Shown: positions 30,387 to 41,167, counted from the stretch's first letter. The stretch is DNA of 64,000 bases from Bacteroidota bacterium (GCA_947479085.1 CANJYB010000008.1:62001-126000), one strand, 5' to 3'. Notes: generated by a model from the letters alone, not told the origin. Numbers and translations: made by a program.

Positions 30387-32573
30387 TCAGGCATCTTCCT
30401 TCCTTTTCTTTTTTTCGTTTTCTTTGCAAACCTTGCACCATACTCCCCTTTTGATACTATAAGGAGCCGCTTGCCACTGATGACCATTTGAGCAAACGAA
30501 CTGCAGTTTGGTTTCAAGGTTAATATATGCTGCAGACAAACATTTACCACCATTATCTGCTGCTATTTGCTGATAGGTTTCAATAGACCCCCTAGTTGCC
30601 TCTCCTCTTGTTTTATCATAGCACTGAGGACACCATGCACCTGTACTGACTACACTTGCTTTCGTTTTCCATATATGCCCTTGGCTACATTCAAATTCCA
30701 ATACCGTTTTATGATTCACATATTCATTGGATAAACATTTACCATTATGTTCGGCAGCAATAGTTATGTATCTTTCTATGGTTACAGTTGTTTTTCGCCC
30801 TATCTTTTTACCATTGCACTTTGTACACCATTTTCCACCCTTAATTTTTGAAGCTATGTCGGTCCAGCGATGTCCGTTTGCACATTCAAATAACAACCTT
30901 GAATGATTGTTTTTATAATCCGATGACAAACATTTACCATTATTTCCGGCTGCTATTTTATAATAGGTTTCAATCGAATCCCTTTGTCTTTCCGCTGCTT
31001 TTTTAATAGCACATTTAGGGCACCAGGTTCCCATTTTTATTCCATGGGCTTGTGTTTCCCACACATGTCCCTCTGCACATTCCATTTTTATCCGGGAATT
31101 CATGTTTTTATATTCCGTACTCAGGCATTTACCTCCTTTTTCTGTTGCTATGGTATGGTATATTTCTATCGAATCTCTATACTTCTCTGCTAATTTTAAT
31201 TTACCGCATTTCGGGCACCAGTTGCCCATTTTAATAGTATTAGGAATGGCTGCCCATTTATGCCCAAGGCCACATTCAAATTTAAGTTTTGATTTACTGT
31301 TAACATATTCTGATGATAAACATTTGCCTCCTTTTAATTCTGCAATCTCCTGGTACATTTCGATGGTGTGTCGAGACCTTTCGCCCTTTTTTTTATCAGC
31401 ACATTTAGGACACCAGCTTCCATTCTTAACATTCGCTCCGGATGCTTTCCATCTATGTCCTTCAGAACATTCAAAAACCAAATAAATATATCTGCTATTT
31501 TTATACTCAAATGAAATACATTTTCCATTATGTGAAGCTGCAATTTTATAGAAAGGTTCTAATGGACCTCTTCTGGTAAGGCCCGCTTGTTTATGGCCGC
31601 AAACCGAACACCAACATCCGCTTTTTATGGTTCCTGCAGCAGTTTTCCATCTATGTCCTTCAGCGCATTCAAACTCCAGCTTATCCTTGCTGCTTTTGTA
31701 TTCAGACGATAAGCATTTGCCTCCTTTTTCAGAAGCAATTTTATGAAACACATCAATAGAATCCCGCAGGCTTTCTAAAACACATTCCCGACACCATTGT
31801 CCACCTTTAATGTTATGTGTTGTTACAAAAAAATTATGTCCTTTAGCACATTCAAATTTAAGTTTGGAAGTGTTCTTAATATAGTTACCGGAGATATACT
31901 TACCACCTTTTTGAATAGCAATTGATTTAACAATTGCTATCTGTTCTTTACTGATTTTCTCCTGTGCACATTCCGGGCACCATCCGCCTCTTTTTATTAT
32001 GGCTGCATTTGTTTCCCAAACATGATCATTTTCGCAGGAAAAATTTAAACGGGTGCTATTATTAATATATTTTTCGGCTAAACATTTACCGCCTTTTTTT
32101 GCTGCAATTTCATTAAGTTCTTCCAATTGTTGCTTACTAATATCATCAGTAATACACGTTCTGCACCAGCCCCCTTCTTTTAATGTTTCAGCTTTGATTA
32201 CCCAGATATGACCATTCTTACAAATGCAAGCCACATTTCTACTGTCCTTAGGAAATTCTTTGGTTAAGCATTCCCCTCCCTTATCTTTTGCAATTTGTTT
32301 CAGTTCTTCCAGTATTTCTTCCCTGGTCTTTCTCTTTTTTAAGCATTGTTTACACCAGGCTCCCTGGTTCACCACTTTATAAGGGCTTTCCCAGCGGTGT
32401 CCCTTTTCACACATCCATTCCAACAAACTGTGTTCATCAATATATTCCTTGCTCAAACACTTGCCGCCATAGTGTTCGGCCAACTGTTGCATAGTGGTTA
32501 TGTCAGTAGTAGTTGCCATTTCATTAATTCCTCCACCAAAGATAAATAATTCCTGTAAATTAAATGAATACAT
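30387..32573 (-). CDS. Protein of 11 tandem treble-clef/zinc-ribbon-like repeats
   Basis: Eleven about 62-66 aa repeats of the form IAxxxGGKCLSxEYxNxxxxLxFxCxxGHxWxxxxxxIKxGxWCPxC; no catalytic domain seen. Likely start MATTTD at about 32519. Confidence 0.85.
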   Translation of the reverse strand: MYSFNLQELFIFGGGINEMATTTDITTMQQLAEHYGGKCLSKEYIDEHSLLEWMCEKGHRWESPYKVVNQGAWCKQCLKKRKTREEILEELKQIAKDKGGECLTKEFPKDSRNVACICKNGHIWVIKAETLKEGGWCRTCITDDISKQQLEELNEIAAKKGGKCLAEKYINNSTRLNFSCENDHVWETNAAIIKRGGWCPECAQEKISKEQIAIVKSIAIQKGGKYISGNYIKNTSKLKFECAKGHNFFVTTHNIKGGQWCRECVLESLRDSIDVFHKIASEKGGKCLSSEYKSSKDKLEFECAEGHRWKTAAGTIKSGCWCSVCGHKQAGLTRRGPLEPFYKIAASHNGKCISFEYKNSRYIYLVFECSEGHRWKASGANVKNGSWCPKCADKKKGERSRHTIEMYQEIAELKGGKCLSSEYVNSKSKLKFECGLGHKWAAIPNTIKMGNWCPKCGKLKLAEKYRDSIEIYHTIATEKGGKCLSTEYKNMNSRIKMECAEGHVWETQAHGIKMGTWCPKCAIKKAAERQRDSIETYYKIAAGNNGKCLSSDYKNNHSRLLFECANGHRWTDIASKIKGGKWCTKCNGKKIGRKTTVTIERYITIAAEHNGKCLSNEYVNHKTVLEFECSQGHIWKTKASVVSTGAWCPQCYDKTRGEATRGSIETYQQIAADNGGKCLSAAYINLETKLQFVCSNGHQWQAAPYSIKRGVWCKVCKENEKKKRKEDA

Positions 32574-33757: not shown

Positions 33758-33785
33758 TTTATAGTTTGTGATTATAGTTTGAATG

Positions 33786-33818
33786 AACCGCTGCCTTAAA
33801 AAGCAGCGGTTTTTTTTG
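33786..33818 (+). terminator. Intrinsic terminator
   Basis: AACCGCTGC-CTTAAAAA-GCAGCGGTT then T-run; ORF-track mtaB start (33783) overlaps this, so the true start is downstream. Confidence 0.88.
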
Positions 33819-33836
33819 TACTTTCGCAGTCCAAAA

Positions 33837-35177
33837 ATGACAAAAAAAGTAGCATTTCATACATTAGGTTGTAAACTGAATTTTTCGGAAACGAGCACCA
33901 TTGCGCGTTTGTTCGAAGAACAGGATTATCAGAAGGTGGATTTTAAAGAGCCTTCGGATATTTATGTTATCAATACCTGTTCGGTAACAGCCAATGCGGA
34001 CAAGGAATGTAAGCTGATAGTAAAATCAGCATTGAGTGTTTCGCCCGATGCGTACATAGTGGTAGTGGGATGTTATGCCCAGCTGAAACCGGAAGAAATA
34101 GCCAACATAGAAGGTGTGGATTTAGTATTAGGTGCTTCTGAGAAATTCAAATTATTGAACTACCTGAACGACCTTACCAAGAAAACGAAAGCGGAAATAT
34201 ACAGTTGCGAAATAGAGGAAGCCAACTTTTTTGTGGATTCCTATTCCTTTGGCGACCGTACCCGTGTGTTCCTGAAAGTGCAGGATGGCTGCGATTACAA
34301 TTGTTCGTTTTGTACCATTCCTTTGGCTAGAGGTAAAAGCCGCAGCGACAGTATCGAAAATGCGGTGAACAATGCAAAGAAAGTTGCTGAACAGGGTAAA
34401 AAGGAAATAGTGCTGACGGGTGTTAACCTTGGGGATTTTGGGAAAGGAGGGGCGAGAGCCGGTGACGAAGGACGAGGGACGAGAGATACTTTTTTAGAAT
34501 TGGTAAAGGAAATGGACAAGGTGGAAGGGATAGAACGTATACGGATTTCGTCCATTGAACCCAACCTGCTGAAAGATGAGACGATTGAATATGTTTCCAA
34601 ATCGGCCCGTTTTGTTCCTCATTTTCATATTCCATTACAATCAGGAAGTAATAAAATACTGAAAGCCATGCGCAGGAGATACCTTCGGGAACTCTATGCC
34701 GACAGGGTAGCTACCATCAAATCGCTGATGCCGCATTGCTGCATTGGTGTGGATGTGATCGTTGGTTTTCCGGGAGAAACGGATGAAGATTTCCTGGAAA
34801 CCTATAATTTCCTGAATGAATTAAACATTTCTTACCTGCATGTTTTTACCTATTCCGAACGTGATAATACAGATGCTATACTGCTGAAAAATGTGGTTCC
34901 GGTAGCTGTTCGCAAAAAAAGAAATAAAATGTTGCGCATACTATCCGCTAAAAAACTTCGTAGTTTTTATGAAGCGCACTTGGGCGAAACCCGCACCGTA
35001 TTGTTCGAAGCCGACCACAAGGAAGGTTTTATGCATGGCTTTACAGATAATTATATTAAGGTGAAAACTCCTTATAACCCAGCCTTGATTAACCAATTGA
35101 GAGAAGTAACCCTTGATGCTTTGGATGCAGATGGTGAAGTGTTGGTGAGTTTTTTGGAGAAGGAATTAGTGGGGTGA
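33837..35177 (+). CDS. mtaB: tRNA (N6-threonylcarbamoyladenosine(37)-C2)-methylthiotransferase MtaB
   Basis: MTKKVAFHTLGCKLNFSET, VQDGCDYNCSFCTIPLARGKSRS (radical SAM CxxxCxxC), LTGVNLGDFG. Confidence 0.95.
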   Translation: MTKKVAFHTLGCKLNFSETSTIARLFEEQDYQKVDFKEPSDIYVINTCSVTANADKECKLIVKSALSVSPDAYIVVVGCYAQLKPEEIANIEGVDLVLGASEKFKLLNYLNDLTKKTKAEIYSCEIEEANFFVDSYSFGDRTRVFLKVQDGCDYNCSFCTIPLARGKSRSDSIENAVNNAKKVAEQGKKEIVLTGVNLGDFGKGGARAGDEGRGTRDTFLELVKEMDKVEGIERIRISSIEPNLLKDETIEYVSKSARFVPHFHIPLQSGSNKILKAMRRRYLRELYADRVATIKSLMPHCCIGVDVIVGFPGETDEDFLETYNFLNELNISYLHVFTYSERDNTDAILLKNVVPVAVRKKRNKMLRILSAKKLRSFYEAHLGETRTVLFEADHKEGFMHGFTDNYIKVKTPYNPALINQLREVTLDALDADGEVLVSFLEKELVG

Positions 35178-35291: not shown

Positions 35292-35443
35292 TATTTCAAA
35301 TCTCTTCTGAACAATTTTTCAACAATATTTTTTGCAATCAGCACAATTTCAATCATTTATTATTAACAACCAAAACACACTCCTTATACAGCCTCCCTTC
35401 TGACTATATTTGAGCATTAAATAATTTTATATAACTATAAAAG

Positions 35444-38128
35444 ATGCTTACAAGAATATCGTTAATCAACTCGAAAGGTTACGGAAAAGCCGAACTGAAA
35501 TTAGACAACTGCGACTCCCTTCAGTTGGTAGGGCCCAATAATATCGGGAAAAGTACGTTGATTTATGCATTGAACTTTTTGTTCATTGTGGACGGACAGA
35601 AAATGTCGTTCAGTGGGCAACGTAAAGGGGATAAGGAAACCATTCACCATTATTTCCCGACTCATAATAAAAGTTTCCTGGTGTTTGAAGTTAACAAGCA
35701 GGGGTATTACTGTATCCTCGTAAAAGCAACTACTGAATGGGAACTGGAGTATTACAAGATAGAAAGCGAATACAACGAAGAGTTCTTTTTCGACAGCCAG
35801 GAAAAGCACCGTATCCGTAGCTTTGATGAAATAGAAATGGTATTAAACTCCAAAGGTGTTGAGTATAGAAAATATGCTAATAAAACAGAGGTGTTTAACG
35901 AAGTATACAAAAGAGGAAAAAACAACAATGCAGTGGTATGGCTGGAAGATGCTGTAAAAACGGATGGTTTGAGTAATAACTTCTCTAAGATTTACCGTTA
36001 CTTAATCAACTCCAAGTTGATTACCAACAAAACCCTTAAGGATTCGTTGATTATAGCGGATAACAGGGAGAATGAAGGGTTGAACTTTTCGCAACGAAAC
36101 AAAACAGATATTCTTAGTTTATTAAAAGCAAATCAGGAAATACGCAATATAAAAGGCATTCAGCACGACTTCCTTGAATTCAGAGAAACCGTTCGTGTGT
36201 TTAATTCAAAATCAAAAATAGTAAGTGAATTGCTTTACTCTTTTAATAAAGCCTATATCACTGCTATTCCGCAGTTTGAAAACACCATCGTGGAAAAAGG
36301 ACAAGGTGTTACTTCCATTCAAAATGAAATAAACGAAATACTTCAGCCAAAAGAGTTGGATTTTGCAACCCGCATAGGTGAAAAGAAATCGGATATAAAA
36401 AACAAAACCAATTATTACCTGGATAAACAGGCAGAACTAAACGAAATCAATAAGTTTGAAACCATCGACTTTTTGACCGAACAGTTAAAAAACCTGGACA
36501 AATCGCGTAAGGAGATTGAGTCGCGTATTACTACCATTGAATCTCAGAAACTTTCGAGCAAACAATTGGAAATGCGTTTGGATAAAATCAATCAGCAGAT
36601 TGCCATTACCGAAAAACAAATTGATGGTTACAATAACTTATTAATCCATAAAATTTCGGATGATGAGGATGTGAAGAAACTATTAAACACTGTCCTTTCG
36701 GAACAGGTTGCAAGTTTATCGAGCAAACAGATTAAAAAACCTATCAAGAAAATCTCTAACAAATTAATGAGCATTTTTGATGGAGAGATTGATATTTCGA
36801 AAGGCTTAATATTAAAAGAATTCAAATCCATCAAGGAATTTAAAGATGAATTGAAAGCGTTGGAGCACGAGAAAAACCAAACGCTGGAATTGTTAAAAGT
36901 AGTTACTGACAAGGAAAAAACAGATTCGAAGTTAAAACAGATTATTGTTGACATCGAAGAGATAAAAGAGAAAATCAAAAAGATTGTGAGCAAACCACAA
37001 TTGGAGAAACACCTTGCTTCTGTGCAGGCAGAAATTAAGAAATTAACAGGAGAGCAAAACGATCTGGATGAATCATTAAAAGATTTGGTGAAAGAGATTG
37101 CTCAGAAACAAATTGCTTTGGAAGCGTTGCAGGATGAGCGAAGAAACTTTGAAGTTCGCTTGAAAGAACTGAAAGAACGCAAAATGGAAGTGGAAACCAT
37201 CACCGACATTGAGCCGACTGAATTTGAAACCACCGACAACTTAGATCACATTTACCAGAAAATACGCATCCACCAAAATGACAGGATGGATATTAAACTG
37301 AACAAAGGCAGAGTGTTCGATAGTTTGAAAAACAAACTGAACAATGACATTGCCGATGAGGAAGAGTTCATCAAATTTGTACAGGAAGAAATTCTTTGTT
37401 TGAGTGATAAAGAAAGAAGTATTGATGGTTTGTTGCAAAGTATCTCCATGCAGTTTGCTACACCTGCTCATGCGCTTATTAAACGTTACGAAGAGTTCAA
37501 ACAATTTGTTTACACAAAATTTAATACCAAACTTTCTAAAACTCGCATCTCCAACATCGAATCGATGAGAGTAGAGTTATTGGATAACGAAAGAATCATT
37601 GGTGAGTTAAAACAAATCAGCGCGATACAGGAGTTCAACGGGCAAATGAGTTTTGAATTTGACCAATCGGAAAACTTAAAAACATTGAACAGCTACCTGG
37701 ATACCGGTAAGAAAATAAACTTTGATGAATTGTTCAACATCCAGTTGGTATTGACTATACAGGGAAGTGAAAAACATGTGGACCTTGCCAACCAGGTGGA
37801 ATCGGACGGAACAGACAGGATGATTCGTTTGGTAATGATTATGTCCATCATCAACCGTTTGGCGGTAACCGATGAGGAAAACAAAATTGTTCTCTTTATA
37901 GATGAAGTAGCAACCATTGATAAACAAAACCGTCCGGAGATTGTGAAGTTCTGTAACGAACATTTCTTCATCCCTATTTTTGCGGCACCGGATGCAGTGG
38001 AAGGATTCAACAAATACTATTTTATCTATCCTTCCAAAAACAAAATCAACATCAATGAAAAGCAAAATGCTATTGTAGTTGAGAAAAACGGAGTGATAGA
38101 AAAGATTGCTAAAAAAGTAAAGTCATAA
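35444..38128 (+). CDS. SMC/MukB-like ATPase of a condensin-like complex (MksB-like)
   Basis: Walker A GPNNIGKST; long coiled coil; SDGTDRMIRLVMIMSI signature-like; Walker B/tail VLFIDEVATIDKQNRPEIVKFCNEHFFIPIFAAPDAVEG resembling the MukB C-terminus (DEAARLD...LIIAAPE). Confidence 0.8.
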   Translation: MLTRISLINSKGYGKAELKLDNCDSLQLVGPNNIGKSTLIYALNFLFIVDGQKMSFSGQRKGDKETIHHYFPTHNKSFLVFEVNKQGYYCILVKATTEWELEYYKIESEYNEEFFFDSQEKHRIRSFDEIEMVLNSKGVEYRKYANKTEVFNEVYKRGKNNNAVVWLEDAVKTDGLSNNFSKIYRYLINSKLITNKTLKDSLIIADNRENEGLNFSQRNKTDILSLLKANQEIRNIKGIQHDFLEFRETVRVFNSKSKIVSELLYSFNKAYITAIPQFENTIVEKGQGVTSIQNEINEILQPKELDFATRIGEKKSDIKNKTNYYLDKQAELNEINKFETIDFLTEQLKNLDKSRKEIESRITTIESQKLSSKQLEMRLDKINQQIAITEKQIDGYNNLLIHKISDDEDVKKLLNTVLSEQVASLSSKQIKKPIKKISNKLMSIFDGEIDISKGLILKEFKSIKEFKDELKALEHEKNQTLELLKVVTDKEKTDSKLKQIIVDIEEIKEKIKKIVSKPQLEKHLASVQAEIKKLTGEQNDLDESLKDLVKEIAQKQIALEALQDERRNFEVRLKELKERKMEVETITDIEPTEFETTDNLDHIYQKIRIHQNDRMDIKLNKGRVFDSLKNKLNNDIADEEEFIKFVQEEILCLSDKERSIDGLLQSISMQFATPAHALIKRYEEFKQFVYTKFNTKLSKTRISNIESMRVELLDNERIIGELKQISAIQEFNGQMSFEFDQSENLKTLNSYLDTGKKINFDELFNIQLVLTIQGSEKHVDLANQVESDGTDRMIRLVMIMSIINRLAVTDEENKIVLFIDEVATIDKQNRPEIVKFCNEHFFIPIFAAPDAVEGFNKYYFIYPSKNKININEKQNAIVVEKNGVIEKIAKKVKS

Positions 38129-38141
38129 TTAAACTATTAAA

Positions 38142-39335
38142 ATGAAGGCAGAACCAAGAACCGTACTCCGATTTTTATTAGAGTATTTTGATATAATAAA
38201 GGACCTGTTTGATACTCAGACAAAGGACAACATCATTACCTACGAGGTAATGAATGAAATTACATCCAAACATAAAATGGATGTAAAGATTCAGTTGCTG
38301 GAATACAAAATCATAAGCAATGTGGCGGAGAACTACCAGTTTCGTCCTGTATTTGCCAGCCTTATTGAATTTATCCTGAGCGAATTCAAACCGATGCTAC
38401 CCGAAACCATTGAAAAGTATCATGTTTCAATTGGTGAATTGTTTCGCAAAATACGTGAGAACATCAATGGAGATAAAGTAATTTTGAATCAACGGATAAC
38501 AGAGTTAAGCAATGAAATTAATAATTTCTATGAATCAGTTGAAAAGAATACACTTGCATTATTGAATGAAACACGTGAATTAAAAGCAAATGTAAAAAAA
38601 GTGGATTACCGGGAAAAGATCATTCGTGCTTCCCGATGGATTGACGAATACATCATCCCGCTTAATAAAATCCTGGATTTGAATCATTCCACTTCATTAA
38701 CTACCAAGCTATACGAAGTATCGGAATATACTAATCGTTATCGTTTGAATTTTGATGATGAAAGTACGCGTATACAGTTTGAGAAACTTTATTTCTCGTT
38801 GATACAAGTGAATGATAATTTGTTGCGCCAGTCAAAAATACTGACCAATGAATTATTGCCATTGATTGAGCGCATTCGTACCGAATCTATTATTCTTACC
38901 GGTTGGATTAATTTCTTAAAAGCACCTCATAAGAAAAAAGTGCCGAAAATACTGGAATCAAAAAGAAATTACATTTACTCAAAAGATACGTTCTTTAATG
39001 CTGCTGAATTTTTTGATGCATTTAAAAATGATGTGGATGTATTTATTGAAGACGAAGAATACGAAGATGAAAAATGGATTTTTGATAAACAACTTTATAA
39101 AGACAAGTTAAAGGATAATTTACCGGTAACGGATTTCTTTAAATGGTGTAATAAAACATTGAAAGAAGACTATAAAAAAGTAGAGATTGAAAAATTCTTT
39201 GCTTTAACATCATTAGCTTTTGATGATGACCTTCAGTTGGAATACCCTGTGAAAGCAGAGTTTGATAAAATAAAAATAAACGATTTAACATTAACAGTAC
39301 CAAAAATTACAATCAATAATCATGGAATATCCTAA
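38142..39335 (+). CDS. Putative kleisin/MukF-MksF-like subunit
   Basis: Helical protein with wHTH-like N-terminus directly between the SMC-like and MksE-like genes; function inferred from position and size. Confidence 0.6.
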   Translation: MKAEPRTVLRFLLEYFDIIKDLFDTQTKDNIITYEVMNEITSKHKMDVKIQLLEYKIISNVAENYQFRPVFASLIEFILSEFKPMLPETIEKYHVSIGELFRKIRENINGDKVILNQRITELSNEINNFYESVEKNTLALLNETRELKANVKKVDYREKIIRASRWIDEYIIPLNKILDLNHSTSLTTKLYEVSEYTNRYRLNFDDESTRIQFEKLYFSLIQVNDNLLRQSKILTNELLPLIERIRTESIILTGWINFLKAPHKKKVPKILESKRNYIYSKDTFFNAAEFFDAFKNDVDVFIEDEEYEDEKWIFDKQLYKDKLKDNLPVTDFFKWCNKTLKEDYKKVEIEKFFALTSLAFDDDLQLEYPVKAEFDKIKINDLTLTVPKITINNHGIS

Positions 39336-39843
39336 AAACCACCGAAAAATAGTTGATGAATTGATGAATGGTAAATTTATTTTACCCATCGAACAGCATT
39401 ACGAAGTATTAAAAGAAAACGAAGAATTTTATGCTGATTTTTTCAAAGTATCTTTTAATTACGATTTGAAATTTACACAGCATTATGCTTACCTGGTTTC
39501 GGACGAATCTGCAGAAATGCTTTCGAGAGATATGTGTATTTTCTTTGCATTGCTAAGTTATGAACTGGACAGGGATGGCAAGAACTTCCTGGAGCGCATT
39601 CAGTACACCGAGTTTGAATTGGATGAAATAGAAAATTATTTCGCTAACTCTTCTTACATTGATTTAATTTTGAGTAACAAACAACTGAAAGATACAGATG
39701 CGCGTAAGAATTTTATTAATACCTTAAACCGTAGAAATATTGTAGAGAAGATTGGTGATAACAGAATCCTCTTTACTTCTGCTCATAAATTCTTTATGGA
39801 CTTTGCTGCTGACATTGTTAAGTTTGAAAATGTAAATGAATAA
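39322..39843 (+). CDS. Putative KITE/MksE-like condensin subunit
   Basis: 173 aa, overlaps upstream ORF by 14 nt; wHTH-like; resembles proteins annotated as condensin complex protein MksE. Confidence 0.62.
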   Translation: MEYPKNHRKIVDELMNGKFILPIEQHYEVLKENEEFYADFFKVSFNYDLKFTQHYAYLVSDESAEMLSRDMCIFFALLSYELDRDGKNFLERIQYTEFELDEIENYFANSSYIDLILSNKQLKDTDARKNFINTLNRRNIVEKIGDNRILFTSAHKFFMDFAADIVKFENVNE

Positions 39844-39907
39844 TATCGGTTAACTATAAATGTTAGCTTCGAATAGTTTGAGTGCTTAGTTAATTAGTAA
39901 GGAAGGG

Positions 39908-41167
39908 ATGGCGAAAGTTGTCCCTTTTTTATTGAACATTTATTTCAGAAAAAAACAAAATATCTTGCTTCTCTTTTCCTTATATAAACAGGCCTTCTCC
40001 AATCTTCAGCGAAACATCTGGATATTGTCCATTGCGAGTTTTATTAACCGCAGTGGCGCTGTTGTATTATTATTTACCTCACTTTATTTAACCAAAGAAT
40101 TACATTTCACCATTCCTCAGGCAGGAATTGTTTTAAGCTTTTACGGCATAGGCAGTGTATTGGGAAGTTATGCAGGAGGCTGGCTGACGGATAGAATCAA
40201 CTATTACAACATCATGATTTTTTCGTTAATCAGTTGCGGATTAATTTTGTTACTGATGCTGCTTACCTCCTCCCCTGCCCTTATTTCTGCAATTATATTT
40301 GCTTATGCGTTCACAGCGGACATGTTCCGCCCCGCTAATTCGGTGGGTATTGCAGCATACAGTACCCCTGAAAACAGAACGCGTTCTGTTTCCTTAATGC
40401 GCCTGGCCATCAATCTTGGTTTTTCTGTCGGTCCTGCATTAGGGGGATTTATTGCCATTCGTCTGGGGTATCATTGGTTATTTGTATTGGATTCATTCAC
40501 CAGTTTTGCAGCGGCTGCAATGATGTTGTATTACCTCCCAAAAAGTAAAATGGAAAAAGACCGACATAAAAATGAAGTACTGCAGGACTCCAGCACTTCT
40601 GCTTACCGTGACAAGGAATACCTGGTTTTTATTTTACTGGTAGCTGTTTATGGCATTTGTTTCTTCCAGCTGTTTGCAAGTGTTCCGCAATATTTCAGTA
40701 CTGTTTGTAATTACCGGGAAGATACCATAGGATTATTGTTAGCGCTGAACGGCCTGTTGGTGGTAATAATAGAAATGCCTCTTATTGCTTCATTGGAAAA
40801 AAGTAAAATCATTTTTCCATATATTATTGGTGGTTGCTTCTGCCTGATTGTTTCATTTTTAATTCTGCAATTCGGAAACGGCCTGATGATAGCAGCCTTG
40901 CTGTATACCTTTGTGATTACTCTTTCAGAAATAATGGCCATGCCTTTTATGATGAGTTATGCACTTTCCCGACCGTTAAAAGAAAGACAGGGACAATACA
41001 CGGCCCTGTATTCCATTTCGTTTGGTCTTGCCAATATAGCAGCCCCATTGCTTGGTCTTGGCATAGCAGGTAAATATGGTTTTAATACTATGTTTATTTC
41101 TGTTATTGCACTTACTTCGATTGCTACTTTAGGTTTTGTAATTCTGAATAAGAAAAAGGCGGGATAG
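39908..41167 (+). CDS. MFS transporter
   Basis: 12-TM pattern; GSYAGGWLTDRINYYNIM motif; RLAINLGFSVGPALGG. Confidence 0.9.
   Translation: MAKVVPFLLNIYFRKKQNILLLFSLYKQAFSNLQRNIWILSIASFINRSGAVVLLFTSLYLTKELHFTIPQAGIVLSFYGIGSVLGSYAGGWLTDRINYYNIMIFSLISCGLILLLMLLTSSPALISAIIFAYAFTADMFRPANSVGIAAYSTPENRTRSVSLMRLAINLGFSVGPALGGFIAIRLGYHWLFVLDSFTSFAAAAMMLYYLPKSKMEKDRHKNEVLQDSSTSAYRDKEYLVFILLVAVYGICFFQLFASVPQYFSTVCNYREDTIGLLLALNGLLVVIIEMPLIASLEKSKIIFPYIIGGCFCLIVSFLILQFGNGLMIAALLYTFVITLSEIMAMPFMMSYALSRPLKERQGQYTALYSISFGLANIAAPLLGLGIAGKYGFNTMFISVIALTSIATLGFVILNKKKAG

Follow-up and report, generated by a model that had tools for sequence, protein, structure and literature searches.

The window, as we call the whole 64,000-nucleotide stretch of a Bacteroidota genome analysed here, contains an operon that can be firmly assigned to the MksBEF-type complexes without a nuclease. 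With a probability of roughly 75%, this former Wadjet-type complex serves as the sole housekeeping condensin of its lineage, in place of the absent SMC-ScpAB, a function that we infer from gene content and conservation. The comparative picture behind this reading, an order-wide MksBEF without SMC-ScpAB and with the loss of the nuclease still visible among relatives, is new. It names a candidate condensin for lineages of Bacteroidota without SMC-ScpAB, and because the nuclease is present in some close relatives, missing from others, and half erased in one, the step of JetD loss can be dated and tested.

The operon comprises three tightly spaced genes on the plus strand (Table 1), separated by a gap of 13 nt (mksB-mksF) and an overlap of 14 nt (mksF-mksE); the initial annotation had given the same coordinates and spacing, and ORF calling in the window found no fourth ORF in the operon. 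The neighbours named there, mtaB and an MFS transporter, were likewise recovered, mtaB with radical SAM and UPF0004 domains. The TATATTTG box upstream of mksB fits the -7 promoter consensus of Bacteroidota and may well act as the promoter. The terminator-like hairpin is weak, because four such sites were found against 2.4 expected by chance; it overlaps the first called codons of the MFS gene (39908-41167), whose true start probably lies further downstream.

Table 1. Features of the mksBFE operon and its flanks (positions counted from the first nucleotide of the window).
Feature	Position	Strand	Description or basis
mtaB	33783..35177	+	Pfam UPF0004 and Radical_SAM; upstream neighbour, outside the complex
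TATATTTG box	35405..35412	+	fits TAnnTTTG, the Bacteroidota -7 promoter consensus; predicted
mksB	35444..38128	+	ORF of an 894-aa SMC-like ATPase
Walker A GPNNIGKST	35531..35557	+	MksB residues 30-38; sequence
Signature-like motif ESDGTD	37799..37816	+	MksB residues 786-791; sequence
Walker B FIDEVA	37895..37912	+	MksB residues 818-823; sequence
mksF	38142..39335	+	397-aa ORF, MukF-type kleisin
mksE	39322..39843	+	173-aa KITE subunit
Terminator-like hairpin and T-run	39894..39935	+	3' of mksE; pattern scan

Searches of MksB, MksF, and MksE against the PDB by sequence alone gave no useful match, and predicted folds were needed because such searches were uninformative for MksB and MksF; both models were folded from alignments of 50 homologues. 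The AlphaFold2 model of MksB (pLDDT 79.8) has a head that is split between both ends of the protein and joined by a coiled coil (residues ~217-394), a hinge-like region (~395-462), and a second coiled coil (~463-700), which, together with invariant motifs, is the architecture of an SMC-type ATPase. The Walker A motif and the C-terminal FIDEVATIDKQNRPE...FAAPDA noted in the initial annotation are both present. Across the 50 homologues, residues N32, N33, G35, K36, and S37 of Walker A, S787, G789, and T790 of the signature-like motif, and D820 and E821 of Walker B are invariant. The best match of the fold among PDB structures is MukB (Foldseek E-value 1.9e-20), followed by Rad50 and JetC (JetC, 1.9e-13), far above RecF, which bears out the earlier view of a MukB-like protein. 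The length of 894 aa, previously regarded as short for MukB, is ordinary for an MksB, because short arms are a trait of MksBs (PMC4255302) and members of the family range from ~880 to 945 aa. A further probe for SMC ATPases, PF13558 (SbcC_Walker_B), had no match in the window's own genome.

MksF has no match at the sequence level, and its assignment as a MukF-type kleisin comes from the predicted fold (pLDDT 80.7), which carries winged-helix elements at both the N- and the C-terminal end and places MukF structures at Foldseek ranks 1-3 and 5, with a modest best E-value of 3.7e-3; this agrees with the winged-helix protein in kleisin position originally proposed. MksE, also recognised as MksE-like at the time, matches the Pfam family MksE (PF21980) with an E-value of 4.4e-20 and 73 bits, above the curated cut-off of 27, which identifies it as a KITE subunit of the MksE/MukE type. 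The fold comparison, which had been suggested as a check, thus yielded nothing that contradicts an identity of the MukB/F/E type, because the MksE match, the MukF and MukB/JetC folds, and the invariant ATPase residues all agree with it. Weak PADLOC matches to the models of AriA and LmuB raise the idea that the operon encodes some other ABC or AAA defence ATPase (PARIS AriA, Lamassu LmuB, or a RecF/RecN type) and not a condensin, but these matches do not extend beyond the P-loop or the coiled coil, whereas the set is defined by the MksE match and by the MukF and MukB/JetC folds, and RecF ranks only 44th (E-value 2.3e-3) among the matches to MksB; we consider this explanation exceedingly improbable.

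The JetD/MksG Toprim nuclease that characterises Wadjet is absent from the operon and from the entire genome (4.28 Mb, 99.4% complete). The family JetD_C (PF09983) had no match, and since PF09983 alone is too weak, having missed the JetD of one genome of the same order (G001), a profile of eight JetDs was also used, again without a match at E ≤ 0.1. The initial annotation, which had found no JetD/MksG-like gene in the window and proposed a genome-wide search, can therefore be extended to the whole genome, and with either probe a four-gene Wadjet is ruled out for the operon, as is a JetD acting on its behalf from elsewhere in the genome. Of the readings offered at the time, that of a nuclease-less Mks condensin gains support from the MksE match, the MukB/JetC and MukF folds, and the absent JetD, whereas recruitment of a remote nuclease fails in the case of JetD, which is excluded from the genome at profile level. 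That of a reduced Wadjet is correct as history, because relatives carry JetD between mksB and mksF and one locus retains a relic. Within the order, JetD is clear only in three genomes (G001, G002, and G029), where it belongs to separate Wadjet-like operons. Besides the core MksBEF, one of these genomes (G001; L032, L239, and contig C52) harbours at least two Wadjet-like operons with a nuclease and a third JetD match that is weaker.

The order also lacks SMC-ScpAB. In the genome-wide search, likewise proposed earlier, none of the order's 36 genomes had the SMC hinge (PF06470), and its 20 genomes of ≥95% completeness gave no match to ScpB (PF04079). MksB, by contrast, is present in 33 of the 36 genomes and in all 26 good ones, although the sample is taxonomically narrow because all genomes of the order carry one genus code. 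The operon is 72-95% identical across nearly all of the order (only ~73% in most members), and mksBFE is under strong purifying selection (dN/dS 0.02-0.05). In 14 of the 17 regions fetched from the order, mtaB lies upstream of the full B-F-E operon, and a TAnnTTTG box of the TATATTTG type precedes the start of mksB by 34-39 nt at 18 of 18 loci. Judged from these genomes, the universality, the synteny with mtaB, the low dN/dS, and the kept box are the pattern of a core gene, unlike that of a defence island.

This pattern bears on the possibility that the operon is a reduced Wadjet still engaged in defence, which would detect small DNA circles by extrusion and then silence them or call upon a nuclease other than JetD. 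Its closest four-gene relatives are indeed Wadjet-like, with a JetD that retains E143 and D186xD188, and JetD-bearing systems of the order adjoin recombinases (L032 in G001 and L034 in G029). However, there is no JetD anywhere in the genome, and mksBFE is universal, syntenic, and under purifying selection, whereas the nuclease-bearing systems of the order are sporadic, which makes a continued role in defence unlikely.

A few loci depart from the core pattern. The only MksB of one genome of the order (G030; L033/L158) is 49% identical, belongs to a JetD-less operon that is not adjacent to mtaB, and groups with a sequence from a JetD-bearing Pontibacter, suggesting that the vertically inherited mksBFE was probably replaced. 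At another locus (L090:8700-13115), two genes encoding proteins of 318 and 1149 aa, whose ends resemble T9SS sorting tails, are inserted between mksB and mksF. In family f10, four genomes (G273, G458, G463, and G467) have MksB matches with one internal TAA, which are possibly decaying copies.

Relatives at 45-54% identity carry JetD, and seven related operons have the gene order B-JetD-F-E and intact Toprim residues in JetD (E143 and D186xD188 in the numbering of L128). The presence of JetD changed at least five times across the supported branches of a tree of B+F+E. At one locus, L118, the last 55 codons of JetD (E-value 1e-15) survive between mksB and mksF (L118:8653-9082), with the Toprim part deleted; the DNA there is 79% identical to L128 over 214 nt that extend into the beginning of mksF. 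JetD is intact in L128, whereas L130, the sister of L118, has no relic. Since the relic lies in place, at least one lineage demonstrably lost the nuclease, and the B-F-E family appears to show this step frozen part-way, from intact (L128) through relic (L118) to gone (L130). Among the B-F gaps examined for relics of JetD, that of L118 alone was convincing, and the gap of L134 contains an unrelated stretch. For the window's own lineage, the loss has to be deduced from relatives because the 13-nt gap holds no relic; the comparison suggests that JetD was lost and not absent from the start. The trees of JetD and MksB match in two pairs but conflict over L128 and L032; a purely vertical history of JetD is therefore not claimed, and some regain or exchange is possible because the trees are only partly congruent.

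Two JetD-bearing four-gene operons (L128 and L143) occur in genomes without an SMC hinge (G412 and G413). Because these SMC-less genomes keep JetD with its catalytic residues intact, SMC loss can precede JetD loss and does not require it. In a holder of the L143 operon (G257), no SMC complex was found other than one that carries a nuclease, which poses the question of how its chromosome escapes cleavage.

The founding description of MksBEF is reportedly that of Petrushenko et al. (2011) for Pseudomonas aeruginosa PAO1. Published MksBEFs are sporadic and typically occur beside SMC-ScpAB or MukBEF. MukBEF of Escherichia coli, which has the gene order F-E-B and replaced SMC-ScpAB in its host lineage, is the best structural match for the predicted folds of MksB and MksF, although MukB has 1467 modelled residues and MksB only 894. 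The MksBEF of PAO1 resembles the window operon in its three subunits, the short-armed MksB, and the absence of MksG but differs in gene order, which is B-F-E in the window; moreover, PAO1 carries SMC-ScpAB in addition, whereas no SMC complex other than MksBEF was found in the lineage of the window. The PAO1 complex has a proven role in chromosome organisation and segregation (PMC7485682). Wadjet (MksBEFG/JetABCD/EptABCD; PMC10123090, PMC10586767) shares the SMC-kleisin-KITE core, judging by the MksE sequence and the predicted folds, but its published order is mksFEBG, whereas that of the window's family is B-(D)-F-E, with JetD absent from the window operon, and its placement is sporadic, whereas the window operon occupies a conserved chromosomal locus. 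A review speculates that MukBEF and MksBEF, including that of P. aeruginosa, arose from Wadjet immunity by the loss of JetD (PMC10586767).

By analogy with MukBEF and the P. aeruginosa complex (PMC7485682), the MksF kleisin would bridge the two heads of an MksB ATPase dimer into a closed ring that also carries MksE as its KITE subunits, and the assembled complex would bind chromosomal DNA and move it or extrude loops from it with ATP. Loop extrusion would compact the chromosome and aid its segregation in place of SMC-ScpAB. The complex would descend from a four-gene Wadjet (MksBEFG/JetABCD) whose JetD once lay between mksB and mksF; with JetD gone, a complex that stalls on a small circle would be expected to leave it uncut.

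Among 396 genomes of Bacteroidia, 97 have the SMC hinge and 100 a strong ScpB match, and the two sets nearly coincide. MksB of the B-F-E family is strong in 49, all of which have MksE, and it co-occurs with SMC in one genome, against 12 expected if they were independent, although the counts behind this exclusion are driven by few families and thus lack independence (MksB occurs in seven family codes and SMC or ScpB in about twenty, with one common to both). The exception, a Cyclobacteriaceae genome (G206), is that of L159, a locus with JetD in its operon. Among the 46 genomes reached by locus, the SMC hinge is present in two, both JetD-bearing, and in none of the 40 holders of JetD-less operons. 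MksE (PF21980) was detected in 121 of the 396 genomes, and neither the SMC hinge nor MksE in 192, so that part of the class has no named condensin, and a condensin may not be obligatory in Bacteroidia. An MksBEF common to all Bacteroidota was therefore rejected. A Hi-C study of two gut Bacteroidetes species found no known condensin in them and described the SMC complex of Bacteroides as unidentified (PMC10197239); since the control genome of B. ihuae matched neither the SMC hinge nor MksE, the candidate named here does not cover Bacteroides itself.

The many Bacteroidia without any detectable condensin would fit an MksBEF that is accessory and acts conditionally, in plasmid maintenance, repair, or stress, without being the main organiser of the chromosome. 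So would the mild effects of an mksB deletion in P. aeruginosa (review table, PMC4255302) and a related family in which 7 of 46 genomes lack MksB. Within the order, however, the operon is kept in 26 of 26 good genomes, with no SMC-ScpAB to which it could be accessory, and an accessory role is distinctly improbable.

Housekeeping use of such complexes may extend beyond the window's B-F-E family (f1, f10, f24, f39, and f52). Two further SMC-less families carry unrelated JetD-less operons, one in the order F-E-B (f8; L164-L166) and one in the order B-F-E that is close to the JetD-bearing L032 (f4). Another SMC-less family (f36; L220-L223) has JetA-JetB-JetC with a long-armed JetC of 1227 aa and no adjacent JetD, and in two more such families (f32, L225; f15, L228) the third subunits have 1164 and 1204 aa and there is no fourth gene. 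Their gene content suggests that Jet/Mks complexes were recruited as condensins repeatedly in SMC-less Bacteroidota. Whether Wadjet-type immune complexes turned into the only chromosome condensin of Bacteroidota without SMC-ScpAB on several independent occasions is in our estimation evenly balanced; the candidates for such conversions are the B-F-E family, f4, f8, and the long-armed JetABC without JetD (f36, f32, and f15).

Elsewhere in the window, the minus strand encodes a 728-aa protein (30387-32573) with many repeated zinc-finger-like units and weak matches to the Pfam families CapR, Jiv90, and DUF4379.
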